A DNA stretch of 64,000 nucleotides, taken from the NCBI GenBank assembly GCA_027483535.1, contig JAIXUN010000002.1:186001-250000 (forward strand). Reading direction: 5' to 3'. Source of the stretch: a bacterium (GTDB taxonomy: Bacteria > Armatimonadota > Fimbriimonadia > Fimbriimonadales > Fimbriimonadaceae). Position 1 is the stretch's first letter. Every line of letters starts with the position of its first letter. Shown piece after piece: positions 4,901 through 63,405 of this stretch. The position numbers and the translations under genes are program-made. The notes under the pieces are model-generated. The model saw only the letters and a list, made by a program, of their open reading frames with translations, was not told where the DNA came from and searched no databases.

Positions 4901-6067
4901 TTACCGAAGCTCGGCGGAAACTGCCGTGTTCTCCCAAGGGAACGCGGAGTTGCCGAAGTGACCGTTCTTCGCGGTCTCGATGTACCGAAGGTCGGGGTTG
5001 AGAAGACCGAGGGTGTCGATGATTCCCTTCGGCGAGAGGTCGAACTTCGCTCGAAGTCGCTTCTCGATCTCGGCTGCCGGGATCGTCTCGGTGCCGAACG
5101 TCTCCACGTTGATCGCGACCGGTTGAGCCACGCCGATAGCGTAGGCGAGTTGGATCACGCATCGCTGAGCAAGCCCTGCTGCGACCACGTTCTTGGCAAG
5201 GAACCGAGCGATGTACGCTGCAGATCGATCGACCTTTGTCGGGTCTTTACCAGAGAACGCGCCGCCGCCGTGAGGGGCCATGCCGCCGTAGGTGTCGACA
5301 ATGATCTTGCGACCCGTGACGCCCGTGTCGCCTTGCGGACCGCCGATCTCGAACGTTCCGGTTGGGTTCACGTGATACTGAATCTCACCGTTGACGTACT
5401 CGCTGTAGCGATCCAGAACGGGCTTGATGATGTGCTCGTGAACGACCTCGTGCACCTTCTTCTCGTACCGAGCGGAGTGCTGCTGAGAAAGAACGATGGT
5501 TTGAATTCGCGAAGGTCGACCGTTGTCGTCGTACTCGACGGAGACTTGGCTCTTGGCATCCGGTCGAATGTCGCCTTCTTCAATCTGCGCGTCGAAAGAC
5601 TTCGGATCCTTTCGAATCTCGGCTGATCGTCGAGTCAGCGCGTGCGCAATCGCAAGCGGAAGGGGCATTCCCTCGGGCGTTTCGTTGGTCGCGTAACCAA
5701 ACATCATGCCTTGGTCGCCTGCTCCGCCGGTATCCACGCCTTGAGCGATGTGAGCCGACTGCGGTTGAATCGCAACGAGCACGCCGCAGGTGTTTCCGTC
5801 AAAGCCGTAATCGGTTTTGGTGTAACCCGCTTGGGTGATGGTGTCTCGAACAATGCTCGCCACGTCGACGTAACCCTCGGTTCGAACCTCACCGGCAACG
5901 ATCACCGCGCCTCTCGTTAGAAGAGTCTCAACGGCAACGCGAGTTCCGCCGCTCTTGCCGAGAGCATGGTCTTGTTGTAAAAAGGCGTCGAGGAGAGCGT
6001 CTGAAATCTGATCCGCCAGTTTGTCTGGGTGTCCAACGCTCACGCTTTCCGACGTATAAATCTTCAT
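4901..6067 (-). CDS. metK: S-adenosylmethionine synthetase
   Basis: MetK makes S-adenosylmethionine from methionine and ATP in the cytoplasm, as a tetramer. The 388-residue product starts [20 protein letters not shown], carrying the conserved GHPDK ATP-binding motif. Further signatures include [10 protein letters not shown] and the glycine-rich [19 protein letters not shown]. The frame continues 23 codons upstream to an ATG at 6136, but that extension has no family similarity, so I place the start at 6067, where GGAAAG directly precedes the ATG. No SAM riboswitch is evident in front of it. The gene stands alone between two terminators. Confidence 0.97.
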
Positions 6068-6180
6068 CTTTCCAACAGAATAGGGTACCCCCAGCACGCT
6101 CAGGGGTCGCCGATTCTCAACTTCAGGGTTTCCCAAACGAAGTATTGACGCCTGCGTGTCTTTATCTTTCGAGGGTCGAG

Positions 6181-6230
6181 AAGCCCCAAAACCTCAGAGC
6201 CCAAAACCTCAAAGTGTTTGGGCTCTGAGG
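6181..6230 (-). terminator. Rho-independent terminator of the glycosylase gene
   Basis: A perfect 14-bp inverted repeat (6192-6205 with 6217-6230) is followed on the minus strand by TTTTGGGG. It sits 4 bases after the glycosylase stop and isolates that gene from metK. Confidence 0.88.
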
Positions 6231-6234
6231 CTCG

Positions 6235-6867
6235 CTAGACCTCCAGCGATCGCCACAGATACCACGAGGCAACGGATCGGTAAGGCCGCCAAGGCTCGGC
6301 GATGGCGCTCATCTCCGGGGCGTTGGGTAATTCGGAACACGGATTCCCTTGGAAGGCGAGCAGGTTCTGGAACCCTTTGCGAACTCCAAGATCCCCAACC
6401 GGAAGAACATCCAGTCTGCCCAGTCGGAAAATGAGCAGCATGTCGACCGTCCAAGGACCGACCCCTTTCAACCGAACAAGTCGTTCCGCAATCGCCTCTT
6501 CAGGCCAAGAAACAAGCTCTTCGCAGGTGGGGAGGGAGTCGATTTCATGGGCGATCCCAAGGATGGTTTTGGCTTTGGCGTTGGAGAGTCCGGCGGTGCG
6601 TAGCTCTTCAATGGTTCGCTCACGAACCCATTCGGGAGTGGGATAGGGAGGCGAAAGCGCCTTGAACTTGTTCTCGATGGCGATGGCCGCTTTCCCGGAG
6701 AGTTGCTGACCAATGACGGTTCCAACGAGTTCTTCCCACAAATCCACGTGGTCTCGGCTTTGAGCGAGAGAGCAGTCGGGGACGAGGTCAATCAGTCGGG
6801 CGAAAAAGGATTCCACCGAAGCGAGGTGCTGTTGGGCAGCTTGAATCACTCGCGAACGGTCGGACAT
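6235..6867 (-). CDS. HhH-GPD DNA glycosylase, AlkA-like (3-methyladenine)
   Basis: A 210-residue base-excision repair enzyme. The core is the HhH-GPD module: the helix-hairpin-helix LKGVGPWTVDMLLIF at about 133-147 and the catalytic Asp159 in VLPVGDLGVRKG. The N-terminal half contains VIGQQLSGKAA, typical of AlkA-type glycosylases. It lacks the extra N-terminal domain of E. coli AlkA, so it resembles the compact form found in many bacteria. It should excise alkylated purines such as 3-methyladenine. It has no operon partner. Confidence 0.9.
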   Translation of the reverse strand: MSDRSRVIQAAQQHLASVESFFARLIDLVPDCSLAQSRDHVDLWEELVGTVIGQQLSGKAAIAIENKFKALSPPYPTPEWVRERTIEELRTAGLSNAKAKTILGIAHEIDSLPTCEELVSWPEEAIAERLVRLKGVGPWTVDMLLIFRLGRLDVLPVGDLGVRKGFQNLLAFQGNPCSELPNAPEMSAIAEPWRPYRSVASWYLWRSLEV

Positions 6868-6895
6868 GGGGAGATTGTAGTCCGAGGCGTTCCAG

Positions 6896-6932
6896 AAAAA
6901 CGCCTATCTCCATGAACCCTTGAAGATAGGCG
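6896..6932 (-). terminator. Rho-independent terminator of folE2
   Basis: A 9-bp stem (CGCCTATCT at 6901-6909 with AGATAGGCG at 6924-6932) is followed on the minus strand by TTTTTC. It lies just after the folE2 stop. Confidence 0.85.
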
Positions 6933-6942
6933 TTAGGAAGGG

Positions 6943-7785
6943 TTACTTGACTCGTGCCAAGTAAGCGTAGGCGTTGTGGTCGTGGATCGACTCGTGGTTC
7001 TCGACTTCGATCTCGTACGCGGCGACTCGATCTTCGCGGTCAAACGCCAGGGCGACTTCTCGTACCATGTCTTCCACGAATCGCGGGTTGCTGTACGCCT
7101 GCTCGGTGACGAACTTCTCATCCGGTCGCTTCAGAACGGGATAGAGTTGGGCCGAACCTGCGGACTCGATCATGTCGATCACGTCTTCTAGCCACAGCTT
7201 GCCTTGCGGCTTGACCTTGACCGAGACGTATCCACGTTGGTTGTGCGCGCCAAAGCTCGAGATCTCTTTGCTGCAGGGGCAGAGGGTGGTAATCGGAACG
7301 ACCAGCCGGAGCCAGAACTCGTTCAGCTTTCCACCTGCGGCGATGAATCCCACTTCGTAGCCCATCATGCCAACCTTCTTGGTGACGGGTGCGGCTTTGC
7401 CTCGGAACAGAGTGAAGTCCACTTCAAGGTGAGCCGTGTCGGCATGGAGGCGATCCCGAAGCTTGGTGAGAATGTCGGGGATGGTCTCGACGCTGACGTC
7501 GTTGTTGTGCTCCGCCAACACCTCTAGGAATCGGCTCATGTGGGTGCCCTTGAATTCCTTGGGTAGGTCGACGGTTAAGGTGAAGGTGCCTACAGAATGC
7601 TGTGGTCCGTTGTCTCGTTCTCGCACCTGAATCGGATATTTGACTTTCTTGACGCCAACTTTATCGATGGCGATGTTGCGCTCGTCTTGCGAGCTTTGGA
7701 TGTCGACCAGCGGTGTGCCGTCGATGCCTTTGGGCGGGTTCCCTTCGGAAGAGATCCCAGTAGGAGGGTTCATTGTGCTTGCCAT
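6943..7785 (-). CDS. folE2: GTP cyclohydrolase FolE2 (type IB)
   Basis: FolE2 converts GTP to 7,8-dihydroneopterin triphosphate, the first step of folate (and queuosine) synthesis, and works with metals other than zinc. The family signature TTLCPCSKEISSFGAHNQRG, with its active-site cysteine and histidine, is clear in the second half. I choose ATG at 7785 (MASTMNPPTG) because AGAGG lies 9 bases upstream; the frame runs nine codons further but without a better site. The product is 280 residues. No folate, queuosine or zinc-regulator genes are adjacent. It is monocistronic with its own terminator. Confidence 0.95.
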   Translation of the reverse strand: MASTMNPPTGISSEGNPPKGIDGTPLVDIQSSQDERNIAIDKVGVKKVKYPIQVRERDNGPQHSVGTFTLTVDLPKEFKGTHMSRFLEVLAEHNNDVSVETIPDILTKLRDRLHADTAHLEVDFTLFRGKAAPVTKKVGMMGYEVGFIAAGGKLNEFWLRLVVPITTLCPCSKEISSFGAHNQRGYVSVKVKPQGKLWLEDVIDMIESAGSAQLYPVLKRPDEKFVTEQAYSNPRFVEDMVREVALAFDREDRVAAYEIEVENHESIHDHNAYAYLARVK

Positions 7786-7947
7786 GTTACGTTGCCTCTG
7801 AGGATTTCCCACGTGTAACTACGCGAAAAACCCGGTGCCGATGGATAAAGGAATTCCCTAAACCAAACCCAGGTTTGAACCCGGCTCGGGGGAGTAAATC
7901 ACAAAGGGTCCTACGGCTGGCGTTGGCAAACGTTTCCTGTTGGCGCC

Positions 7948-9468
7948 TTATCTCACCTGCGAGAAATACGCGAAGGCAAACACGGCGGTGTTGTTGAGCA
8001 TGTGGAGAACAATGCCCGGAACGAGGGACTTGGTGTAGTACGTCAGCACACAATTGAGTCCACCGATGGTTCCAAGGAGCAGCCACGCGCCCGGTCCTTG
8101 GGGGTGAATCGCGGCGAACAAGAGACTTGATAAAAAGACTCCCCAGGCCACCGAATTTACTTTCTTAGAAATGGCGGGGAAGAGCATTCCGCGAAACACG
8201 ATCTCTTCCCAAATGGGAGCGGCAACCGAACCCATGAGCAGAATCCGGATCATCGTGGTCGCGTCGGGGTTGGCGAGCATCTGCTCGCCCGCGGGGTGGG
8301 AGTTGGTGGGAAGAACGCGCATCAGCGGAATGCTGATGACGATCGCCAGCATGAGAAGAGCGGCGTTGGCAACCCATCCGGCGGCACCGATCCCGACTTT
8401 CGCAAGGAGCCCTTCCAGCCCCGCTCCGATCCCTTTGGTCGTGAACTTCTCTCCAAACACCGCATCCTTCGGGAGCAGTAGCACTAATCCCACCATGACC
8501 GCGTAGGGGAGCAGACCGACAACGATTTCCAGAGTCGGATTGGCCGTGACCGCCTTTACCGCTCCGATTCCCGCTCCAAAGATCATCATTCCGATGAAGA
8601 CGAGCATCAGAAAACCTGCCCGCAGAGCCAGGCGATCGCCCATCGATTCGGTGAGAGGGCCCGTTGGGAATCCCTTGGGTCGAATGCTTCCGGTGCGAGT
8701 TCCGATGATGAAGTAGAGCCAGGCGCCAACTCCGGCAAAGACCACAAACATCGCCCCGCCAATCGCTAGCAGCATAGGAGCAATTCGATCCAGCGGGAAC
8801 ACCTTCGCAGCCTCCGATTTCTTGCCTTGAGACTCTAAGACAATGGCCCGGGCGATGTCTTTCCGCAGGTCCCTCTCTGGCAAATCGCTAAGCGCCTTTG
8901 GCAGCGCAATCTTTGCGTCTTTCTTTCCGAAGTCGGGGTTCTTTAGGAACTCACCCACGGCCCGATTGCTCGCATCTTTCGACTTTGAGAGCGTGGCGAG
9001 TGATTTTTCGGCGTCCTTGGGAAGGGGTTTATCGAGCGGCGTTTCCAGGCGATCGATCAGTAATCGCCATGCAACAACCTCTTCATCTTTGCTCTCCTTG
9101 AGCAAATCCCTGGCCTGGCTGAGATTGGCCTCGCCAACTTCAGGCGAGTTTGCTCGCATGGTCAGTCCCAGAATGACCTGCGTCCGAAGTGCGCGGGAGT
9201 CTTCTAGAGGCGAACTACTTTTGCTCTTCCCGAGTCCGTTCAGAGCGGAGCCGATGGAGAACGTGAAGAAGAGAAAGAGGATCGCCCAACCAATCCAGGT
9301 GCGATGAACTGCGGCTTCTGGGGTCTCCTGGGCGAAGGGCGGAACACTCTCGGGGCGGGGTGTTGCGTAAAGAGAAAGGTCGGGCGACTCACCGAACTCG
9401 AACTGGGGCTTCCCACCTTGAGAGTTGGGCGCGTCGGAGTCCTGTGGAATCGGCGGATAGTCGCTCAT
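7948..9468 (-). CDS. CPBP-family intramembrane glutamic protease with helical N-terminal region
   Basis: A 506-residue membrane protein. Residues up to about 65 are a Pro-rich tail. A membrane segment (IGWAILFLFFTFSIGSAL) follows, then a 140-residue soluble helical region and about eight transmembrane segments. The CPBP/CAAX protease motifs are all present near the C-terminus: EEIVFRG (EExxxR), FAAIHPQGPGAW and HMLNNTAVF. Such proteases cleave within or near the membrane; in bacteria they are often linked to bacteriocin immunity or envelope stress. The soluble insert is longer than in typical CPBP proteins and may be a TPR-like partner-binding region. It reads alone, upstream of folE2. Confidence 0.88.
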   Translation of the reverse strand: MSDYPPIPQDSDAPNSQGGKPQFEFGESPDLSLYATPRPESVPPFAQETPEAAVHRTWIGWAILFLFFTFSIGSALNGLGKSKSSSPLEDSRALRTQVILGLTMRANSPEVGEANLSQARDLLKESKDEEVVAWRLLIDRLETPLDKPLPKDAEKSLATLSKSKDASNRAVGEFLKNPDFGKKDAKIALPKALSDLPERDLRKDIARAIVLESQGKKSEAAKVFPLDRIAPMLLAIGGAMFVVFAGVGAWLYFIIGTRTGSIRPKGFPTGPLTESMGDRLALRAGFLMLVFIGMMIFGAGIGAVKAVTANPTLEIVVGLLPYAVMVGLVLLLPKDAVFGEKFTTKGIGAGLEGLLAKVGIGAAGWVANAALLMLAIVISIPLMRVLPTNSHPAGEQMLANPDATTMIRILLMGSVAAPIWEEIVFRGMLFPAISKKVNSVAWGVFLSSLLFAAIHPQGPGAWLLLGTIGGLNCVLTYYTKSLVPGIVLHMLNNTAVFAFAYFSQVR

Positions 9469-9599
9469 GGAACCTTCAAAGCGGTAAACCGCCCGTTCAA
9501 ATTTACCCGTGCCCCTTGCATCCTCACCCGATCGCAGTCCAAAGGGCCCGGCTGAACAGCCGCATCCTCTAGGGTAGGTGATCCGTACCTATCAGTGAG

Positions 9600-10586
9600 A
9601 TGGCAAACCCACTACCGACAATTTTGTTCATGATTCTGGCGGCGTTGAGTTGGTTCGCCTCCGGGGTCCAAGCCGATCCGGCTACGGGATGGTGGAAGTT
9701 CGTGCTCGCGCTGTTCATCTCTGGGTTCCTGAGTTCGGCGTTGCGCGTTGCGGCTCAATGGGAAAAGGTCATCGTGTTCCGCTTGGGTCGCTATCATGCG
9801 CTGAAAGGTCCGGGGATCTTTACGGTCTTGCCGTTCTTCGATACGACTCGGCGGGTGGATACTCGGATCACCACGCTTGATATTCCGACCCAGCAAGCGA
9901 TCACGAAGGACAACGTTCCTGTCTCGCTCGACGGCGTCATTTTCTTGCGGGTAGATAACCCTGCCAACGCGATCATTCAGGTTCAAAACTACCAAAGCGC
10001 GATTCGGCAATATGCTCAAACCGCCCTTCGAGACGTGGTGGGTAGCGTGACGCTCGACCAGATTCTTGCCGACCGGGAGGCGCTTGGCGAACGGATCGAG
10101 AAGATGGTGGAGATGGAAACCGACGGTTGGGGTCTGCAGATCGCGGGTATTCGCATCCAGGACATCGTCTTGCCGGAAGACCTGAAACGAGTGATGGCTC
10201 GACAAGCGGCCGCCGAGCGGGAGAAGCGGGCGAACATCACCAAGTCGGAAGGCGACCGAGAGGCGGCAGAAAACCTCGCAGCGGCGGCAAGGGAGATGGC
10301 AACCGCGCCGGGCGCTTTGCAACTTCGAACGCTTCAGTCTTTGGATACGCTCGGTAACTCGGCGGCGAACACGGTAGTGCTCGCGATCCCAATCGACGTG
10401 GTGAACGCGTTGCAAGCCGTTCCGAAGATGGTGGAAAACCGCAATCAGAATCTCGCGCCGCAAGCTCCGCCGGAACCGGTGGTTGCTCCTGTGGTCGCAC
10501 CTCTGAACGCAAGCGCGCTCGGCGGACTTCTGCAGAGCACAAAGCAGGAACCTAAGGATAACGTTTCCTTAACAGATAACGCTTAA
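9600..10586 (+). CDS. Slipin / stomatin-like SPFH-domain membrane protein
   Basis: A 328-residue protein with two N-terminal hydrophobic segments (about 5-22 and 33-50). The SPFH domain begins at QWEKVIVFRLGRYHALKGPG and continues through RVDTRITTLDIP and ITKDNVPVSLDGVIFLRV. A predicted coiled-coil, Ala/Glu-rich region (about 200-245) follows, with the typical slipin sequence AEREKRANITKSEGDREAA, and then a Pro-rich tail. Slipins oligomerise at the membrane and organise lipid domains or proteases. The usual partner, an NfeD-type membrane protease, is not next to it here. A terminator follows 38 bases after the stop. Confidence 0.93.
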   Translation: MANPLPTILFMILAALSWFASGVQADPATGWWKFVLALFISGFLSSALRVAAQWEKVIVFRLGRYHALKGPGIFTVLPFFDTTRRVDTRITTLDIPTQQAITKDNVPVSLDGVIFLRVDNPANAIIQVQNYQSAIRQYAQTALRDVVGSVTLDQILADREALGERIEKMVEMETDGWGLQIAGIRIQDIVLPEDLKRVMARQAAAEREKRANITKSEGDREAAENLAAAAREMATAPGALQLRTLQSLDTLGNSAANTVVLAIPIDVVNALQAVPKMVENRNQNLAPQAPPEPVVAPVVAPLNASALGGLLQSTKQEPKDNVSLTDNA

Positions 10587-10624
10587 GTTGGATTACTGCA
10601 TTTGCAGAATTTAAAAAATTGATT

Positions 10625-10660
10625 AGAGAGCATCCCCATTTTTGGGGATGCTCTCTTTGC
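10625..10660 (+). terminator. Terminator-like hairpin after the slipin gene
   Basis: A 13-bp perfect stem (10625-10637 with 10644-10656) around ATTTTT is followed by only a short T-run. The stem is strong but the U-tract is weak. Confidence 0.7.
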
Positions 10661-10664
10661 ATTA

Positions 10665-10699
10665 TTGACAATGATTAGAGATACCTATGCAGGGTATCT
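10665..10699 (+). promoter_or_regulatory. Possible promoter/operator upstream of the duplicated secreted protein
   Basis: A perfect -35 hexamer TTGACA (10665-10670) is followed by a 7+7 inverted repeat AGATACC-N7-GGTATCT (10679-10699). No good -10 hexamer is at the right spacing, so the promoter call is weak. The inverted repeat would suit a dimeric regulator. Confidence 0.35.
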
Positions 10700-10847
10700 A
10701 AAAGGGAGTCGGATGAGGCGCAATTCGAGACTGAGGACCCCCAAATATGGGGATAGGGCAGCCTTCTTACCATCAGTAGACTAAGGTCGTTCTTTGTTTT
10801 GGTTCGGTGGATTTAGAAGCTGAATCAAGATGGCTTTGGAGCAAAAT

Positions 10848-11624
10848 ATGACCCTAAAGGTAATTAGCAGCGCCGCTATCGCACTCGCGATTGCAGCCTC
10901 GTCGCTCGCAACGGGCGACCGCATCGTTCTCGCATCGGGATCTCTTGTTCGGGGGAGCACGGAGTATCCAAACGCAGTAGTCACTTACAACCCGGTGATG
11001 GACGCTTCTGGTGTTGGATCCAACCCTGGTATTGAGCTATGGCCCTCGGCGGCTGCCGAAGCAGCGGGCACGGGGCGACTTTCTCGATCCAACGACAACA
11101 ACGGCCAGTGGAACTACGCTCCGACAGGCGCGTTCTTCTCCGGTGGCCAGGTCTACGTTTACGGAACGAAGACGGGTAGCCACGGTCCTCGCGGAAACGT
11201 CTGGAGTGGAGGACAAGGCATGTTCTTAACTCAAACGGGCGCTTCGTACAGCGACCAACCGACTGTTCTTGAAGACGGTCGATCGCTTTTCGGACCGTTC
11301 ACCCTTCAGCGAGGAAACACCCTCCTCACTGAGGCTTATGTCACTTACGATCCGATTTTGGACGCGGCGGGTACGGGTTCCAATCCTGGGATCAACGTGT
11401 ATTCCAGCCTGGACGGCGCACTGAATCGGACGGGAAGTATCTTCCGATCGGTCGATAACAACGGTCAGTGGAATTACCGCGTCGACTCCGTCTTTAACTT
11501 CGGAAGCCAAATCTACATTCTCGGTGGACGTGGAGCCGGTTCGGGTGTGAAGGCTCCTCGAGTCTGGACCACCTTTAGTGCAGGCGGAGGCTTCCTCTCC
11601 CAGGCAGCAGGGTTCTCGCTCTAA
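10848..11624 (+). CDS. Secreted protein with an internal duplication, function unknown
   Basis: I do not recognise a family. The start is placed at ATG 10848 (MTLKVISSAAIALAIAASS), which gives a clean signal peptide and a GGAG site 6 bases upstream; an earlier in-frame ATG at 10830 lacks both. The 258-residue product has two copies of about 95 residues. Each copy has a VTYxPxxDAxGxGSNPGI motif and ends in D-N-N-G-Q-W-N-Y; the copies start near residues 35 and 160. Unlike its neighbours it has no PEP-CTERM tail. It is probably an envelope or matrix protein. A terminator follows. Confidence 0.7.
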   Translation: MTLKVISSAAIALAIAASSLATGDRIVLASGSLVRGSTEYPNAVVTYNPVMDASGVGSNPGIELWPSAAAEAAGTGRLSRSNDNNGQWNYAPTGAFFSGGQVYVYGTKTGSHGPRGNVWSGGQGMFLTQTGASYSDQPTVLEDGRSLFGPFTLQRGNTLLTEAYVTYDPILDAAGTGSNPGINVYSSLDGALNRTGSIFRSVDNNGQWNYRVDSVFNFGSQIYILGGRGAGSGVKAPRVWTTFSAGGGFLSQAAGFSL

Positions 11625-11645
11625 GGCAGGGTTACTGGAATGGTA

Positions 11646-11684
11646 CGAGACCTGGGGGATTCTCCTAGGTCTCGTTCTGTTTTA
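11646..11684 (+). terminator. Rho-independent terminator
   Basis: The stem CGAGACCT (11646-11653) pairs with AGGTCTCG (11667-11674) and is followed by TTCTGTTTT. It ends the transcript of the duplicated secreted protein. Confidence 0.75.
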
Positions 11685-11737
11685 GTAAAAGAATTAGTTA
11701 ATTTACTAATTAATCAAAATCAATAAAGAATTCTCGA

Positions 11738-11785
11738 ATATCGGTTTCTTTATATACCGGTTCATCCTAATACCGGTAGTTCTAG
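11738..11785 (+). repeat. Three tandem 16-bp direct repeats (iteron-like operator)
   Basis: The repeats start at 11738, 11754 and 11770: ATATCGGTTTCTTTAT, ATACCGGTTCATCCTA and ATACCGGTAGTTCTAG. The first nine positions are nearly identical (ATAYCGGTT/A) and the period is exactly 16. The array lies in an AT-rich leader about 80 bp before a PEP-CTERM gene and looks like a cooperative binding site for a transcription factor. Confidence 0.65.
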
Positions 11786-11866
11786 TGATGAGGATTAGGA
11801 GGATGCCTTTGTAGACTCATTTTGTTGGTTCGAGCTGAGCCAACTTGCTTTTGCAAAGGAGTATCA

Positions 11867-12637
11867 ATGAAGAAAACAATGCTTTTCGCCTCTCTTGGGC
11901 TTAGTGTGGTGGCAAGCGCCCAGCAAGTCCATGTCAACTCGCTCGCCTACCGACCCGTTTCTGACGGTGGCACCACCGTCCTCGGCGCCAAGTTCAAGAG
12001 CGACAACAACAACTGGGACTTTTCCCTTGCGAACACGGGCAGCACGGCAACCTCCGCAAACTTCATCCAAGCACAGGTCGGAAACAACGCTTTCATCAGT
12101 GCGCGCAACTACGCTTTTGCGTTGGAGCACAAGGTTGGCGAGGGCTTCATCTGGAGCATCACCGATAAAGCAGACAGCAGCGCAAAGACCACGCTCTCGT
12201 GGGGAACGTTTACAACCCCGCCTGCCGGAACCAACGCAGCGACACTGAACGGCATCGCACCGGACCGATCGTTCAACGCCCTGCGCATTGAGAACCGAGC
12301 AAGTAGTACCGGATCGCAGAACATCTTCTCCAACCTCTCATTCACCTCGGCAGCAACGTTCAATGGTTCGTTCTTCAACGGAACCATCACGCCAAGCACA
12401 GGTTACAATCCTTTCAGCGCAGTCAGCAACGGATTCTCTGTTCAGTGGCTGGTGTCAGATACGGATCTCTCTACCTACAACTGGACTCTCGGAGGAGATG
12501 TGCAACTGGTAGGTGGTAACAACGAAGCCCTCCGCATGGACATTCAAGGTCGATCCCTCCAAGCCGTTCCCGAACCCGGAACGATGGCCGCACTGGGTCT
12601 TGGAATTGCCGCTTTGTTGAAGCGCAAGCGCAAGTAA
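11867..12637 (+). CDS. PEP-CTERM secreted protein
   Basis: A 256-residue exported protein. The start at 11867 (MKKTMLFASLGLSVVASAQ) has AAAGGAG 5 bases upstream and gives a normal signal peptide. The C-terminus VPEPGTMAALGLGIAALLKRKRK has the three parts of a PEP-CTERM anchor: the VPEP motif, a hydrophobic helix and a basic tail. Exosortase systems process such tails to place proteins at the surface or in the extracellular matrix. The central part is Asn/Ser/Thr-rich with no recognised domain. Its leader carries three 16-bp direct repeats. A strong terminator follows. Confidence 0.85.
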   Translation: MKKTMLFASLGLSVVASAQQVHVNSLAYRPVSDGGTTVLGAKFKSDNNNWDFSLANTGSTATSANFIQAQVGNNAFISARNYAFALEHKVGEGFIWSITDKADSSAKTTLSWGTFTTPPAGTNAATLNGIAPDRSFNALRIENRASSTGSQNIFSNLSFTSAATFNGSFFNGTITPSTGYNPFSAVSNGFSVQWLVSDTDLSTYNWTLGGDVQLVGGNNEALRMDIQGRSLQAVPEPGTMAALGLGIAALLKRKRK

Positions 12638-12658
12638 TCCGCTCTCGCCTGCTCATCA

Positions 12659-12699
12659 AAGGAGAGGTTGATTCAGATCAACCTCTCCTTTTCTTTTCC
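12659..12699 (+). terminator. Rho-independent terminator
   Basis: A perfect 14-bp stem (12659-12672 with 12677-12690) with a 4-nt loop is followed by a T-rich tract (TTTTCTTTT). Confidence 0.9.
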
Positions 12700-12774
12700 T
12701 CCTTCATCTGCCAGGCAGCGGAAGGGTACTGGATCCTCGCCCCTTGTTCGGTTCCTCTTTCGGATTTGCTCGAA

Positions 12775-12810
12775 ACACAAAGAAGCCCCGACCGTTAGAC
12801 GGCCGGGGCT
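12775..12810 (-). terminator. Terminator of the second PEP-CTERM gene
   Basis: Read on the minus strand, a GC-rich 11-bp stem with one mismatch (12784-12794 with 12800-12810) is followed by TCTTTGTGTTT. It lies 23 bases after the stop of the PEP-CTERM gene at 12834. Confidence 0.75.
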
Positions 12811-12833
12811 GATTGGGAGCTAAGGCGCGGACC

Positions 12834-13640
12834 TTAGGCCTTCTTGCGTCGTCGGAGAAGGGCGAGTGCGCCTGCTCCAAGAGCGGCCATCGTGCCAGGC
12901 TCAGGAACCGCTTGGTACGTGATGTTGTCGAATAGAACGCCGACTGCACCGGTAGTAGCAGCGCCACCCGCGCGGAACAGGAGTCGGTCGTAAGGAGTGA
13001 CCGTCTCGTTCACATCGACGAAGTAGTCTTCCCAGCCGATACCCGTAAAGACCGTGGAGCCGTTCAAATCCACGGTCCAGACGTCGTTGAGGGCCCCAGG
13101 AACAAACGTTTGGGTGAAGCCGAGGTTGTAGGTGGTGCCTGCAACGAGGTTAGAGGCGAGAACCGTGTTGGTGAAGGCGGTGCCGTCATAGTCGAACACG
13201 TCGACCTGCCAGGAGTTGTCGATGCCACCCGAGTTTCGAATTCGGATGTAGTTGCCTCGCTGACCGGTGCCGTTGTCGATGCTGATCACGACGTTCTCGC
13301 CTGCCTTGCCACCGGCAAGCGGTTCGAAGTCGAGGTTCATCTTGAACACGTTGTAAGCCGAAGAGGAGCTCACAGCGTTGCTCAGCGCCGGAGTGAAGGG
13401 TTGATCGCCGAACGAACCGCTCGCGACGGAGTTGCTCATTCGCCAGCTCTTGTTGCCAGAGATGGCTCCAGAGGAGACGACCTCTTGGTCCCAGGCGGAG
13501 TTGGTGATCTGCCAACCGTCGTAACCGTTGGTGATCTTCCCATCCGGGTAGGTCTCAAAGTCGAGGCTGATCATGTCAGCATGCGCGCCGGCTGCGGCGA
13601 CGCCAAGTAGCCCAAAGGCAATGAATTTCTGTTTGAACAT
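12834..13640 (-). CDS. PEP-CTERM secreted protein, lectin-like beta fold likely
   Basis: A 268-residue exported protein with signal peptide MFKQKFIAFGLLGVAAAGAHA and C-terminal anchor VPEPGTMAALGAGALALLRRRKKA. The mature part begins ISLDFETYPDG and reads like a jelly-roll carbohydrate-binding module (alternating hydrophobic strands, many Asp/Asn/Gly turns). I infer that fold from composition only. The tail is almost identical to that of the convergent PEP-CTERM gene at 11867, so both probably use the same exosortase, which is not in this window. The 220-bp leader contains an AACCGGTAT element. Confidence 0.82.
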   Translation of the reverse strand: MFKQKFIAFGLLGVAAAGAHADMISLDFETYPDGKITNGYDGWQITNSAWDQEVVSSGAISGNKSWRMSNSVASGSFGDQPFTPALSNAVSSSSAYNVFKMNLDFEPLAGGKAGENVVISIDNGTGQRGNYIRIRNSGGIDNSWQVDVFDYDGTAFTNTVLASNLVAGTTYNLGFTQTFVPGALNDVWTVDLNGSTVFTGIGWEDYFVDVNETVTPYDRLLFRAGGAATTGAVGVLFDNITYQAVPEPGTMAALGAGALALLRRRKKA

Positions 13641-13725
13641 GTCGTTTCACCATGGTTGGTCGCATGCGCGATCAACAATGGGATTTTAAGGACTAATTAG
13701 TGCCAAAAACGGGGCCGGTGGCTTC

Positions 13726-13734
13726 AACCGGTAT
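13726..13734 (-). promoter_or_regulatory. ATACCGGTT element upstream of a PEP-CTERM gene
   Basis: The minus strand reads ATACCGGTT, identical to the core of the second 16-bp repeat at 11754. It lies 86 bp before the PEP-CTERM start at 13640. Only one good copy is present, so the link is suggestive only. Confidence 0.35.
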
Positions 13735-13798
13735 TTGAACGGATGAAAGGTACCTATTTAGGGAGTCCCTTTTAGCGACCCATACTAGAGGGCTAGAC

Positions 13799-13830
13799 GA
13801 AAAAAAGCCCCTTGCGATCGCAAGGGGCTC
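13799..13830 (-). terminator. Rho-independent terminator of the third PEP-CTERM gene
   Basis: A perfect palindromic stem (13805-13830, core TTGCGATCGCAA) is followed on the minus strand by TTTTTTCG. It lies 29 bases after the stop at 13860. Confidence 0.9.
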
Positions 13831-13859
13831 CGAAGAGATTTGGTTGTGAGAAGGTCCGC

Positions 13860-14657
13860 TTACTTGCGGCGTCGTCGCTTCAACAAAGCGACCGCGCCTA
13901 CGGTGAGGGCAACCATGGTTGCGGGTTCTGGAACCACGTTCGGAGTTCCACCACCGCCGCCGGAGACCGCGATCACTCCGCCGATGCCACCGAGGACGCC
14001 TGCGATCGCTCCGATGTTTGCTCCGCCTGCGAAGGACTGCGCCAAGGGGGGAGGAATCACCGACTCGGAGGTCATGGGCGGAACCGTTCGCAACGCCATG
14101 GGCTCGCCGGGGGTAACGATCTCTTCGTCAAAGGTTTCGACGGTTGGAACCGTTGCCACGAGCGTCGACATTGCGGGTTCGGGCACGGTCGTAACCGCCT
14201 CGCGAGTTGCGAGCGAAGTTGGCTCGACGACCTCATCGCTCACCAGCGGGCTGCTGGGAGGAATCGCGTAAGCGACAACCGGGCCTCGAACGAACGGGTT
14301 ACCGCACTTGACGCGGAGGATGGGGTTGCCGTTTTTGTCAACGAAAGCTGGGGTTCCTTTCTTGAAGAAGGAAACGTGCGCCTTGATACGTCCGCCTTCC
14401 GGAACGCTGTAGATCACATAGTTGCCGCTCTTCTTGAGGGTTCCGAGCTTGAGCGACCCTAGGTAATTCACCACCTCTTCCTTATCCATGGAAAAGTGGC
14501 GCATGTAGCGATCCATGACCGTCTTGTCGGACCGAACCTGAACCATCAGCTCGGGAACCGTGTTTGCGGGCTTGTTGATGAACGCGTTCAACTCGGGGCG
14601 TGCAAGCGCACTCCCGGTGAGCGCCAGGGCCGCAACTCCAATGCAAAATCCTTTCAT
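13860..14657 (-). CDS. PEP-CTERM protein with a Pro/Val-rich stalk
   Basis: The start is placed at ATG 14657 (MKGFCIGVAALALTGSALA) with AGGAG upstream; the frame continues about 30 codons further without a signal peptide. The 265-residue product has a signal peptide and an N-terminal domain of about 110 residues that reads like a DKTVMDRYMRHF-type helical region followed by strands. A Pro/Thr/Val-rich stalk (about 120-200), a glycine run and the anchor VPEPATMVALTVGAVALLKRRRRK follow. A second VPEP motif (TTVPEPAMSTL) occurs inside the stalk without a membrane helix. ACCGG-containing elements are also found in its leader. Confidence 0.8.
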   Translation of the reverse strand: MKGFCIGVAALALTGSALARPELNAFINKPANTVPELMVQVRSDKTVMDRYMRHFSMDKEEVVNYLGSLKLGTLKKSGNYVIYSVPEGGRIKAHVSFFKKGTPAFVDKNGNPILRVKCGNPFVRGPVVAYAIPPSSPLVSDEVVEPTSLATREAVTTVPEPAMSTLVATVPTVETFDEEIVTPGEPMALRTVPPMTSESVIPPPLAQSFAGGANIGAIAGVLGGIGGVIAVSGGGGGTPNVVPEPATMVALTVGAVALLKRRRRK

Positions 14658-14778
14658 TTCCAAAACTCTCCTACGTGTACAAAGCAGTGTATCAACAGAA
14701 TTCATGCCGGTATAAGCCACAAGACCAAGAGGAATACCAATAACCGGCAATAATACTTAAAGATTGCGTTAGTATTGT

Positions 14779-15480
14779 TTATCCCTGGGCCTGGCCGGCT
14801 TTCATATGACGTCTAATCGCCTCGATCGCTTCGGATGCCGCAGCTTGCTCCGCTTCCTTCTTCGATCTGCCCCGACCCTCGCCAATGACCTCGTTGTCAA
14901 ACACGACCTCTACGATGAATTGGCGATCATGCGACCCACCAAGTTCCTTCGCGACTCGGTACGTAGGCGTTTTTCTCCAGATGGATTGCGCAATCTCCTG
15001 AAGTTTGCTTTTGAAGTCGTCCGGATTAACGTCCCCGCTGCTGATCCGCATGAGATACGGGTGCAGTTGCTCCAAGATGAACCAGCGAGCCACTTCAAGC
15101 CCGGATTCCAGGTAGATCGCTCCGAAAACGGCTTCGACGAGGTCGGCAAGAATAGAAGCGCGTTGACGGCCGCCCGTGACCTCTTCGCTTGCACTTAGCT
15201 CAAGGCAGTTCTCCAGTCCGAGCTTTTTGGCGATCTCGGCAAGCGGCGCTTCTTGCACCACGCTGCTCTTCGCTTTAGACATGAGGCCCTGATCCCAGTT
15301 CGGGTGATGCTCATACAGGTACTGAGCAACGACCAGACCCAGAACGGAGTCGCCGAAAAATTCAAGTCGCTCGTAGCTGTCGCAGACATTCGGCGTTGCC
15401 GAACGGTGTCGCATCGCTAATGCGAACAGGTGGGTGCTCTTGAGCGGGATGCCCTTCGGAATAGTGACCGTACCACTCAT
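14779..15480 (-). CDS. rnc: Ribonuclease III
   Basis: RNase III cuts double-stranded RNA and processes rRNA precursors. The signature ERLEFFGDS lies at residues 37-45, and the second metal site region LADLVEAVFGAIYLE further on. The C-terminal third is a double-stranded RNA-binding domain ending EAEQAAASEAIEAIRRH. At 233 residues the length is normal. The ATG overlaps the stop of the upstream aminotransferase gene by 4 bases (ATGA), so the two are translationally coupled. No acpP or fab genes, the usual neighbours of rnc, are present here. Confidence 0.96.
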   Translation of the reverse strand: MSGTVTIPKGIPLKSTHLFALAMRHRSATPNVCDSYERLEFFGDSVLGLVVAQYLYEHHPNWDQGLMSKAKSSVVQEAPLAEIAKKLGLENCLELSASEEVTGGRQRASILADLVEAVFGAIYLESGLEVARWFILEQLHPYLMRISSGDVNPDDFKSKLQEIAQSIWRKTPTYRVAKELGGSHDRQFIVEVVFDNEVIGEGRGRSKKEAEQAAASEAIEAIRRHMKAGQAQG

Positions 15481-16700
15481 GCAGTGCGGTCGACGATCGC
15501 CTGCTTTATCCGGCGAACGCCCTCCTCGATATTCTTTCTGCTGGTGGCGTAGCTGAGCCTAATATGCCCGGCTCCTTCAAACACCGATCCCGGTACCACC
15601 GCAACCTTTGCTTCTTCTAGAAGCCAAGAGGCGAGATCAACATCGCTCTCACCGGGCTTGAGCGCCCCGGTTACCTTCGGGAACGCATAGAACGCCCCGT
15701 GGGGAAGATTGCACTCAAAGCCAGGGACATCGTTCAGCAGGCCAACAATCAGGTCTCGGCGAGCTTCAAACTCCGCTCTCATCGCCTCAATCTGATCGGA
15801 AGGGAGATTGAAAGCAACGGCGGCACCCTTCTGCGCAAAAGAGGTGGGGTTGCTGGTGACCTGATCTTGCAGGTTGCTCATGGCTTTGGCAACGGCGAGG
15901 GGAGCGGCGGAAAAGCCGATTCGCCATCCGGTCATCGCATAAGACTTCGAGCATCCACCGATGGTGATCGTGCGATCTTGAACGTCTTGGCCGAGGGCGG
16001 CGATCGATCCCGCCTCGAATCCGTAAACCAACCGCTCGTAAATCTCGTCGGAGATGATCCAAAGGTTGTTCTTCAGAGCGACAGTCGCGATTTCCTTGAG
16101 GGTTTGTCTTGGGAATACGCCACCCGTGGGGTTGCTCGGACTGTTGAGCAAAATCGCCTTGGTTCGCGGAGTGACTGCGGCTCGGAGGTCGTCGTAGGAG
16201 GGAACGAAGTCGGTTTCCGGCCCCGTTTGCACGACAACCGGAACACCGCCCGCCAGCTTGATCTGGTCGGCGTAGGTCATCCAGTAAGGTGCGAAGAGAA
16301 TGACCTCGTCGCCCGGGTTCACCAGAACCTGGATCGCATTGTAGACGCTGTGCTTGGCGCCGCAAGAGACAATGATTTGTTCCGGTGAATACGTGAGGTT
16401 GTTCTCGCGGGCGAGTTTCCCAACAATCGCTTGCTTCAGTTCGACGATGCCCGCGCTGGGGGTGTACTTGGTGAATCCGCTATCGATGGCGGCTTTTGCC
16501 GCGTCGCAAATTTCCTGAGGGGTGTTGAAATCGGGCTCCCCTGCACCAAAGGCGATCACATCGATCCCCTGTGCTTTCATCGCATTGGCCTTAGAGGTAA
16601 TTGCCAACGTTGGGGAAGGCTTTAGCAACTCGACGCGCGAGGAAAGAGAGGGAGTTTCCACCGAGTTGAGTATAACCGTTGAACAGGACCTTGCACCCAT
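15477..16700 (-). CDS. Class I/II aminotransferase, aspartate aminotransferase type
   Basis: A PLP enzyme that should transfer the amino group of aspartate (perhaps prephenate) to 2-oxoglutarate. Recognisable motifs are the substrate loop LLKPSPTLAITSKA, NSPSNPTGGVF, SDEIYERLVYG and the PLP-lysine region GGCSKSYAMTGWRIGF. The C-terminal arginine lies in HIRLSYATS. ATG at 16700 gives 407 residues; a GTG at 16661 would give 394, closer to the family norm, and neither has a good ribosome-binding site. The longest frame (to 16820) would overlap the divergent permease gene. It is followed by rnc with a 4-base overlap. Confidence 0.92.
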   Translation of the reverse strand: MGARSCSTVILNSVETPSLSSRVELLKPSPTLAITSKANAMKAQGIDVIAFGAGEPDFNTPQEICDAAKAAIDSGFTKYTPSAGIVELKQAIVGKLARENNLTYSPEQIIVSCGAKHSVYNAIQVLVNPGDEVILFAPYWMTYADQIKLAGGVPVVVQTGPETDFVPSYDDLRAAVTPRTKAILLNSPSNPTGGVFPRQTLKEIATVALKNNLWIISDEIYERLVYGFEAGSIAALGQDVQDRTITIGGCSKSYAMTGWRIGFSAAPLAVAKAMSNLQDQVTSNPTSFAQKGAAVAFNLPSDQIEAMRAEFEARRDLIVGLLNDVPGFECNLPHGAFYAFPKVTGALKPGESDVDLASWLLEEAKVAVVPGSVFEGAGHIRLSYATSRKNIEEGVRRIKQAIVDRTA

Positions 16701-16772
16701 CTCCCTATGGAATCGTTCTCCATATGGAATCGTGGGCGTTGATTCGAAAGGTTCTTCGCGACGGATCGCACC

Positions 16773-17804
16773 ATGAACCCAACTAGAGAAAAGGTTTCGA
16801 ACTCGGTGCGTTCCTCCCAACTCTCTTGGGCTTTTTTGCCGCTGGCGCTGCTCGCGTTACTCGTTCATATCGGCATCGGCAGCTTTGAATGGTACGCACC
16901 TTGGGACGTGCTCGGCGAAATCCTTCGCGGACCCCGAGACGACACCGTCATCAACCGTATTGTTTGGAACCTTCGACTAACGCGAGGGCTAGAAGCGGGT
17001 TTGGTGGGAGCCCTCCTTGGTGGTGTTGGGGTGACTTTTCAGGCGTACTTCCGAAACCCACTCGCTGAGCCGTACATCGTTGGCACCAGTAGCGGGGCCG
17101 CTGTTGGCAGTGCGATCATCATGGTTTCCGGGCTAGGTTCGGGAATCCTGGGCGTCCTCGCGATGCCGATCGCTGCCTTCATCGGAGGGTTAGGAACGCT
17201 GCTTTTGGTCCTTGCCCTGAGTCGAAAAAGAGGGGTGACCGATTCGCAGCGATTGCTTCTGGCGGGGGTTGTGCTTTCCACTCTCTTGTACAGCGTGTTG
17301 TCGCTCATCCTGCTTGCTTCGGGGGAATCGACAACCAGGGTTCTTCAATTCTTACTCGGACACTTCGGGAACGCCCGTTGGGAAAACGTGGTCCTGCTCG
17401 CACCGACCCTCGTTCTCGGCTACATAGGATTGTTCCGACTCTCGAAGTCGCTCAACGCAACGATGGTCAGTTCGGAGACTGCAATCACGTTGGGTGTGGA
17501 TCCTAGCCGATTGCGTTGGTCGGTGTTGATCTGGGGAACCATCCTGACGTCCATTTGCGTGGGAACGGCTGGCGTGATCGGGTTTGTTGGTTTGGTCGCA
17601 CCGCATATTGCCCGGCGAATTGTTGGTCCAGACCTTCGACGGTCGCTCAGCGCATCTATCGCGATCGGCATGATCCTGATTCTCCTTGCCGATGCCCTTG
17701 CTCAGCGCGGGGTTCGGGGAATCGAATTGCCCGTTGGCGTGGTCACCGCCATTTTCGGTGCGCCGACGTTGCTTTATCTTCTTCGCCGAGAGGTTACGGC
17801 CTAG
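16773..17804 (+). CDS. FecCD/BtuC-type ABC transporter permease (orphan)
   Basis: A 343-residue polytopic membrane protein with about ten transmembrane segments. FecCD signatures are clear: RLTRGLEAGLVGALLGGVG near residue 70, AYFRNPLAEPYIVGTSSGA, and VGFVGLVAPHIARRIVGPDLR, the cytoplasmic loop that contacts the ATPase. These permeases import iron-siderophores, haem or cobalamin. Neither the ATP-binding subunit nor the substrate-binding protein is adjacent, which is unusual; ribH follows after 50 bp. The orphan may pair with subunits elsewhere. Confidence 0.92.
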   Translation: MNPTREKVSNSVRSSQLSWAFLPLALLALLVHIGIGSFEWYAPWDVLGEILRGPRDDTVINRIVWNLRLTRGLEAGLVGALLGGVGVTFQAYFRNPLAEPYIVGTSSGAAVGSAIIMVSGLGSGILGVLAMPIAAFIGGLGTLLLVLALSRKRGVTDSQRLLLAGVVLSTLLYSVLSLILLASGESTTRVLQFLLGHFGNARWENVVLLAPTLVLGYIGLFRLSKSLNATMVSSETAITLGVDPSRLRWSVLIWGTILTSICVGTAGVIGFVGLVAPHIARRIVGPDLRRSLSASIAIGMILILLADALAQRGVRGIELPVGVVTAIFGAPTLLYLLRREVTA

Positions 17805-17854
17805 AATCGCCTTCTTAGGAAACGGGCGAAATCCGCCATACTTAGAACATAGCC

Positions 17855-18316
17855 ATGGCAGAAATTCGAGGCGATATGAATCTGAGCGGTGCAAGAGTTG
17901 CCGTGGTCGTGAGTCGATGGAACGAGTTGGTCACCAAAGAACTCCTTGCGGGTGCGTTGGATGAACTGACCCGACACGGAGCCGGGGAGATCGAAATTGT
18001 TCACGTTCCGGGTACCTGGGAGATTCCGGTCGCCGTGAAAGCTCTTATCGCCAAGCATTCTGATCTTGAGGCGGTGGTTGCCCTCGGCTGCATCTTGCAA
18101 GGACAAACTCCGCACGCCAAGCTACTGGGTGGAGATGTAGGAGGCGCGCTGATGGGGCTGCAAGTCGAAGCCGCTCTGCCGATCACCTGGGGAATTCTCA
18201 CGCCGGACACGCAAGATCAGGCTCTGGATCGCGCCGGGTTGAAATTTGGCAATAAGGGGCGAGAAGCCGCTTTGGCGGCGATTGAAATGGTCGGTGTCCT
18301 TCGCAAAATCGGCTAG
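17855..18316 (+). CDS. ribH: 6,7-dimethyl-8-ribityllumazine synthase
   Basis: RibH makes the lumazine precursor of riboflavin from a pyrimidinedione and dihydroxybutanone phosphate, usually as an icosahedral shell. The 153-residue product has the expected order: VVVSRWNELVTKELLAGA at the N-terminus, the VPGTWEIPVAVK substrate loop, and GCILQGQTPHAKLL with the catalytic histidine. In that motif HAKLL replaces the more common HF(D/E)xV, a mild deviation. No other rib genes are nearby. It lies between the permease and the TauE-type exporter with short gaps, so co-transcription is possible but not functionally obvious. Confidence 0.94.
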   Translation: MAEIRGDMNLSGARVAVVVSRWNELVTKELLAGALDELTRHGAGEIEIVHVPGTWEIPVAVKALIAKHSDLEAVVALGCILQGQTPHAKLLGGDVGGALMGLQVEAALPITWGILTPDTQDQALDRAGLKFGNKGREAALAAIEMVGVLRKIG

Positions 18317-62907: not shown

Positions 62908-63405
62908 ATGCCTCCTTCTGATTTCAGTTTCGACATCGTTTCCCGCGCCGACATGATGGAGCTCAAGAACGCGGTGCAACAAGCACAGCGCGAGCTTGAG
63001 AATCGGTACGACTTCAAGGGCTCTAAGGCCGATATCCAGTTCGAGAAAGACAAGCTCACTCTAGTCGCGGACGACGAGTTCAAGATGGACCAGCTCAAGG
63101 ACATCGTGTTCTCCAAGATGCTCAAGCGCGGCATCGACTCTCGCCAGATCAGTTGGACGAAGCTAGAGCCCGCCGCCGGAATCACCGTGAAGTGCGACCT
63201 GGAACTTCAAACCGGTATCTCGCAAGACAAGGCCAAGGCGCTCGTCAAGCAGATTCGAGACAACAAGGCTCTCAAGGTCCAGCCGCAGATTCAGGGCGAT
63301 GAAGTTCGCGTGAGTTCCAAGAGCAAAGACGACCTGCAGAAGGCGATCACCTTCGTGAAGGGTCTGGATTTGGACTACCCGGTCGACTTCGTCAACTTCC
63401 GCTAA
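62908..63405 (+). CDS. yajQ: YajQ-family nucleotide-binding protein
   Basis: A 165-residue protein with the YajQ double ferredoxin-like fold. The start PSDFSFDIVSRADMMELKNAVQQA, the middle NRYDFKGSKADIQFE and the end LDLDYPVDFVNFR are family signatures. YajQ proteins bind nucleotides and RNA, and in some bacteria c-di-GMP, and then affect transcription. The function here is not visible. The next gene is convergent. Confidence 0.95.
   Translation: MPPSDFSFDIVSRADMMELKNAVQQAQRELENRYDFKGSKADIQFEKDKLTLVADDEFKMDQLKDIVFSKMLKRGIDSRQISWTKLEPAAGITVKCDLELQTGISQDKAKALVKQIRDNKALKVQPQIQGDEVRVSSKSKDDLQKAITFVKGLDLDYPVDFVNFR

Follow-up and report, generated by a model that had tools for sequence, protein, structure and literature searches.

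The array considered here lies in a 64,000-nucleotide stretch of DNA (the window), between a terminator-like hairpin at 11645-11675, 3′ of the upstream gene, and a PEP-CTERM gene on the forward strand at 11867-12637 (PF07589, E = 1.9e-6). The start of this focal gene was chosen by a script from the signal peptide and the ribosome-binding site, while the ORF list opens it at 11822. A second, neighbouring PEP-CTERM gene (12834-13640) and a third (13860-14657), taken from the ORF list and a Pfam scan, lie on the reverse strand; the start of the third was again script-chosen from signal peptide and ribosome-binding site, its ORF opening at 14750 in the list. The array consists of three copies of ATAYCGGTW on the forward strand, namely ATATCGGTT at 11738-11746, ATACCGGTT at 11754-11762 and ATACCGGTA at 11770-11778, starting at -129, about -113 and about -97 relative to the focal ATG. 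The original prediction of three such iterons upstream of a PEP-CTERM gene, at a period of exactly 16 bp, is confirmed in both place and spacing. The copies agree over 9 bases, 2 of which are variable positions. The focal leader also carries a hairpin with a T-rich tail (11824-11844), directly before the ribosome-binding site.

Exact matches to ATAYCGGTW number 46 genome-wide, against 30 for the reversed pattern. Outside the array, the window holds two of them, both on the reverse strand (13726-13734 and 63210-63218), and the first belongs to the neighbouring PEP-CTERM gene's leader. The pattern of two copies 16 bp apart occurs exactly at the array only in the whole 3.77-Mb genome. That there is no second exact pair bears out the claim that the arrangement goes beyond chance for such a pattern, this being a single case. 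At two mismatches the pair search of the same genome returned 18 matches against 6 for the control; four of the 18 are the array itself on both strands, and of the 14 others one (C1:467010) falls in another PEP-CTERM leader. Among 19 further genomes of the genus the pair had no exact match, and with one mismatch it gave 15 matches in 10 of the 19, the 9 matches of the reversed control being little fewer. Among the matches listed in a scan of named genomes, the best for MetK was in a MAG called Fimbriimonas ginsengisoli, at 64% identity, so that the organism probably belongs to that lineage.

PEP-CTERM genes of the genome were collected with PF07589, which gave 99 matches at E-values up to 1; we used 95, of which 93 passed the cut-off and two narrowly missed it, and omitted the four weakest. 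Their starts were likewise script-chosen from signal peptide and ribosome-binding site, and some clearly lie inside the gene. The test originally suggested was whether copies of the motif at 16-bp spacing precede PEP-CTERM or exosortase genes. For the exact motif it fails: 2 of the 95 genes (the focal gene and its neighbour) have a copy within the 300 bp upstream, and spaced pairs precede one other PEP-CTERM gene only, with two mismatches. The exact iteron is therefore no general PEP-CTERM element. With one mismatch allowed, 23 matches were found in 28,500 leader bases, where 12.4 (sd 3.8) were expected and the largest of 50 shuffles gave 21; four of the 23 are the array itself. Moreover, the array cannot be traced by orthology, since the focal gene gave partial matches only, spanning no more than roughly its C-terminal half. 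They came from 15 of 60 relatives and from two further loci of the own genome; no orthologue was found in named genomes. A DNA similarity search of the own genome with the leader returned the leader itself only.

A 16-bp palindrome in PEP-CTERM leaders

The k-mers enriched in the leaders include TTGCCGGT and TAAATTTA, whose contexts suggested a palindrome. Expectation-maximisation seeded with the enriched 6-mers and three seeds of our own, with no dyad imposed, converged from several seeds on CCnGCAAATTTGCnGG-like motifs, which were then refined with the dyad imposed. The resulting motif is a 16-bp palindrome, CYnGYAAWWTTRCnRG, mostly found 50-130 bp upstream of the start codon. At a full-operator score of at least 11, the threshold used throughout unless stated, it is present in the last 200 bp of 49 of the 95 leaders, the same leaders having trained the matrix. 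A de novo palindrome search of 93 de-duplicated leaders, with all 256 eight-base palindromes as starting points, reached a log-likelihood of 216.6, compared with 55.6-62.2 in four shuffled sets. In a two-fold held-out test at a score of at least 10 the site was recovered in 20/46 and 21/47 genes, against means of 1.0 and 1.1 (maxima 8 and 5) for column-permuted matrices. These results establish that the motif exists, where it lies and that it is linked to PEP-CTERM genes, and we hold it almost certain that the regulon motif itself is real. The original idea of a regulator site tied to PEP-CTERM genes thus stands in the form of a degenerate palindrome with an iteron-like half-site, and fails in the form of the exact motif.

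Sites were much denser in leaders than outside them. In the own genome we counted 55 in 18,975 distinct leader bases and 12 in the 167,738 distinct bases that make up the rest of the same stretches, a 40-fold difference. Two related genomes on which the matrix was not trained (G005 and G031) together gave 42 sites in 14,000 leader bases and 7 in at most 129,187 bases outside, the outside density being a lower bound in that overlapping stretches were counted twice. Because the outside bases are mostly coding, the contrast is partly one between leaders and genes. Across the 64-kb window the matrix found 4 sites, close to a permuted mean of 3.2, and one of the four is the operator of the third PEP-CTERM gene.

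Leaders of relatives within the order were tested as well. G005 belongs to the same genus (35 of 64 PEP-CTERM matches used) and G031 to another genus (35 of 63), while G046 (15 of 24) and G049 (14 of 28) represent two other families; the matches used were mostly those with the best profile scores, and in G049 one of 15 loci was dropped for want of upstream sequence. De novo searches of the G005 leaders and of the G031 leaders each returned the same palindrome. With the matrix of the own genome, 20 of the 35 leaders in G005 (permuted mean 0.43, maximum 6) and 19 of the 35 in G031 (permuted mean 0.23, maximum 3) carried a site, and restricting the search to the last 200 bp left 19 leaders in each. 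In G046 and G049 the counts were 8/15 and 5/14, with permuted means of 0.15 and 0.10. The de novo search was suggestive in the 15 leaders of G046, and in the 14 of G049 it did not return the motif.

In 70 of 81 genomes, the own genome included, raw consensus counts are higher than for the reversed pattern. These counts alone are no evidence for a PEP-CTERM regulon, unlike the leader tests, because a PEP-CTERM gene was seen downstream of the exact site at 1 of 29 sampled loci in relatives. The sample took one listed exact site per genome with crude ORF picking, 18 of the 29 sites lying inside the picked ORF and several picks looking spurious. By eye, some of the 29 sites precede other secreted proteins. 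A genus relative (G010) has an exact operator (L192, 1501-1516) approximately 167 bp upstream of a gene that appears by eye to be flagellin-like.

Sites elsewhere in the genome and promoter signals

Exact matches to the consensus CYnGYAWWWWTRCnRG number 19 in the own genome, compared with 1 for its reversed control. With one mismatch the counts are 91 and 58, so most of the looser matches are background. Twelve of the exact sites fall in the 200 bp upstream of a PEP-CTERM gene; they belong to 11 such genes, of which one did not reach the PF07589 cut-off. The other 7 lie elsewhere. It may be, then, that the regulon extends beyond PEP-CTERM genes, or that part of the remaining sites is background. 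No clear autoregulated regulator was seen among the genes beside these 7 exact sites and beside 18 of the one-mismatch stretches. The exosortase neighbourhoods of three genomes likewise contained no obvious regulator, as judged from the N-terminal 60 residues of ORFs picked crudely, many of the G031 picks looking spurious.

Several individual sites were observed away from PEP-CTERM genes. An exact operator (L160, 1501-1516; G000:C1:693058) lies between the end of a regulator gene that is MarR-like by eye and the start of a HAD-phosphatase-like gene. One-mismatch operators at L374 1523-1538 (G000:C1:1780622) and L373 1507-1522 (G000:C1:1710506) lie before or just inside the starts of two proteins whose C-termini resemble, by eye, GGDEF diguanylate cyclases, and a link to c-di-GMP is possible. 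A further exact operator (L155, 1501-1516; G000:C1:116939) precedes a gene and immediately follows a TTAGCACT-n-AGTGCTAA inverted repeat that resembles the CIRCE element. Two one-mismatch operators 38 bp apart (L360; G000:C1:282220 and 282258) have no recognised PEP-CTERM gene nearby.

Opposite positions of the palindrome showed no covariation across 87 sites from 165 leaders. Because the halves vary independently, the palindrome is read as the DNA operator of a dimer and not as an RNA stem, and the possibility that it forms an RNA hairpin was rejected. The distribution of operator centres has its peak in the bins between -120 and -80. TAnnnT hexamers are in excess 30 and 31 bp after the dyad (5 and 8 of 74, with about 1.3 expected), and a second excess occurs at 46 bp (8/74). 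The former would place the dyad near -42 of the transcription start, which is only suggestive, because about 130 offsets were examined and there are two peaks.

Promoters of the sigma-54 type (-24/-12) showed no general enrichment in the 165 leaders: a scan with a simple consensus, as distinct from motif 1 of Haft et al., found 19 at up to two mismatches against 13 for the reversed pattern, with 84 against 81 at three mismatches and 6 against 0 at one. The palindrome is missing from 4 of the 6 leaders with a near-perfect sigma-54 site. Near-perfect promoter sequences in leaders without the palindrome are found at G000:C4:522812, G000:C2:113307 and G005:C2:291208. RpoN (PF04552) was over the cut-off in 5/5 genomes searched. 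A small separate RpoN-dependent group of PEP-CTERM genes is possible.

The array as a candidate variant operator

Under our preferred reading the focal leader would be part of a PEP-CTERM regulon controlled by a putative dimeric DNA-binding protein, whose usual operator would be the palindrome. The array would be an atypical operator, in which half-sites (TRCnGG inside ATACCGGTT) are arranged head to tail at a period of one operator length (16 bp), and neighbouring dimers could sit side by side with one good half-site each. Iterons 2 and 3 are indeed strong half-site matches (TATACCGG, score 8.53, and AATACCGG, score 8.12), at -114 and -98, where operator positions have their peak. As a half-site iteron 1 is weak, scoring 2.95 of a possible 10.2. 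The focal leader has no full 16-bp dyad at a score of 11 or above, and at the array the scores are 7.7 or less: iteron 3 as a left half gives 7.7 (11770-11791), and iterons 1, 2 and 3 as right halves give -7.4, 1.0 and -2.8, with no matching left half. The best full-operator score in the leader, 10.7-10.8, belongs to a sub-threshold palindrome, GAATTAGTTAATTTACTAATTA, on the forward strand at 11691-11712, which is 176 bp before the focal ATG and away from the usual operator position. Since the array is not palindromic and iteron 1 is a poor half-site, we put the link between array and regulon at roughly even odds, a probability of about 0.5 that the array is a variant operator of the regulon's putative dimeric regulator.

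An operator-like site with an RCCGGTT half precedes each of the other two PEP-CTERM genes. That of the second gene (TCATCCGTTCAAATACCGGTTG, reverse strand, 13725-13746) is a weak palindrome that contains an exact copy of ATACCGGTT, scoring 10.1, below the threshold of 11, at -106. That of the third gene (CTTTAAGTATTATTGCCGGTTA, reverse strand, 14741-14762) scores 13.0 and lies 105 bp before the ATG. Furthermore, the leader at C1:467695 has two CCGGTT cores 16 bp apart. Direct half-sites at 16-bp spacing are no clear general form of the operator, being modestly frequent at most: they occur in 7 genes, the focal gene included, where other spacings have a mean of 3.2 (sd 1.8), and a spacing of 24 occurs in more (8 genes). 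In the 46 leaders that lack the palindrome, half-sites scoring 7 at -140 to -60 are present in 16 genes against 8.4, with 9 of 300 permutations as high; at scores of 7.5, 8 and 8.5, 88, 31 and 49 of 300 permutations were as high, and the half-site excess in these leaders is weak.

It is unlikely, if a serious contender, that the array serves another regulator, a local one, and that its resemblance to the PEP-CTERM half-site is due to chance. The copies agree over 9 bases, 2 of them variable, so that ATAYCGGTW is much more narrowly defined than the half-site consensus and might belong to another protein. The lack of a full palindrome at the array and the restriction of the exact motif to 2 of 95 leaders, the focal one and the neighbour's, fit such a regulator as well. 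However, no regulator gene was recognised in the ORF list from 6000 to 18000 (read by eye, four proteins being Pfam-scanned), and the neighbour's ATACCGGTT is the right half of the weak palindrome at the regulon's usual position.

Slightly less probable is chance or decay, whereby one or two of the half-sites would work or be relics, with coincidence accounting for the third copy and the exact spacing. Iteron 1 is, as noted, a poor half-site, the half-site excess in palindrome-less leaders is weak, and at the score of the weakest copy the half-site matrix leads one to expect 9.4 equally spaced triples in the window by chance. Against this, the exact 9-base pattern at 16 bp occurs nowhere else in 3.77 Mb, while the reversed control has no match in the own genome when one mismatch is allowed and 6 when two are.

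We consider it very unlikely that the array acts as an RNA leader element, with iterons 2 and 3 pairing as a 5′ UTR hairpin upstream of a structured ribosome-binding site. The copies contain ACCGGT, which is its own reverse complement, and iterons 2 and 3 can therefore pair; they do so in the minimum-energy structure, and 11690-11880 folds better than shuffled sequence (z = -3.28, 1/200 as good). However, no Rfam family reached its gathering threshold here, the only match in the window being a tRNA, and the independence of opposite positions in the 87 operators argues that the related sites form no RNA stems. Nor does structure before the start codon much exceed that further upstream when PEP-CTERM leaders are taken together (9 against 6 of 95 with z < -2), and a common pre-start hairpin, suspected from similar hairpins noticed by eye in other leaders, was rejected on this comparison. 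That the copies are replication iterons, bound by Rep, is scarcely credible: short repeats at exact tandem spacing would suit them, but the copies here are short and just three in number, they occupy a gap of promoter size that separates a terminator-like hairpin from a PEP-CTERM gene, the 2.46-Mb contig is probably chromosomal, and no Rep gene was recognised when the ORF list from 6000 to 18000 was read by eye.

Returning to the variant operator, we infer that a dimer binds, that the same protein would act at the array and that it would bind there cooperatively. Activation as the direction of control is a guess, made because -10-like hexamers are weakly over-represented 30-31 bp past the dyad. 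As a whole, we tentatively propose, at a little under even odds, a PEP-CTERM regulon that spans the order and is separate from the proteobacterial sigma-54 system, with one putative dimeric regulator and the array as its cooperative variant site.

Dimeric regulators are known whose half-site is used either as a palindrome or as a direct repeat of fixed spacing, and the proposed arrangement resembles such tandem half-site operators in general. Another regulator site at a PEP-CTERM gene is that of ZepA of Anabaena, reportedly a PEP-CTERM protein with a Zur site; the Zur box, TGATAnnnnTATCA, differs in sequence from the palindrome, and the gene is one of zinc uptake. Zur regulation of ZepA has been described (PMC10957091). 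In Desulfovibrio vulgaris the response regulator DVUA0057 binds upstream of PEP-CTERM genes (PMC3333781), which similarly links a single regulator to several PEP-CTERM targets. It is, however, one of several predicted regulators of the box of Haft et al., the portion of that source available describes no such palindrome, and a figure legend states that the binding motifs were not validated for the regulator group shown. Likewise, pepA of Aquincola tertiaricarbonis is RpoN-dependent with a mapped, regulated promoter (PMC9850573); it too is a regulated PEP-CTERM gene, but one with a sigma-54 promoter in a proteobacterium, and no such palindrome is described in the accessible text.

According to the sections available of Haft et al. 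2006 (PMC1569441), 99 of 167 proteobacterial PEP-CTERM genes have an upstream box, associated with sigma-54 and PrsK/PrsR and made up of a predicted activator site and a -24(GG)/-12(GC) sigma-54 promoter, in Proteobacteria only. The palindrome resembles this box as a common upstream DNA site at many PEP-CTERM genes (49/95 here), and differs from the two motifs of the box in being a single 16-bp palindrome, in another lineage and without general sigma-54 enrichment. A PEP-CTERM palindrome of this kind was not recognised in the literature searched, which covered few subscription journals. In the same sections, Haft et al. 2006 (PMC1569441) left further regulators and motifs to be found in and outside Proteobacteria, and with them the control of PEP-CTERM genes outside that group. 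The five genomes examined closely here hold between 24 and 99 PEP-CTERM matches each, and one operator common to about half of the PEP-CTERM genes in three genomes, and present in leaders of two more, makes their control directly testable.
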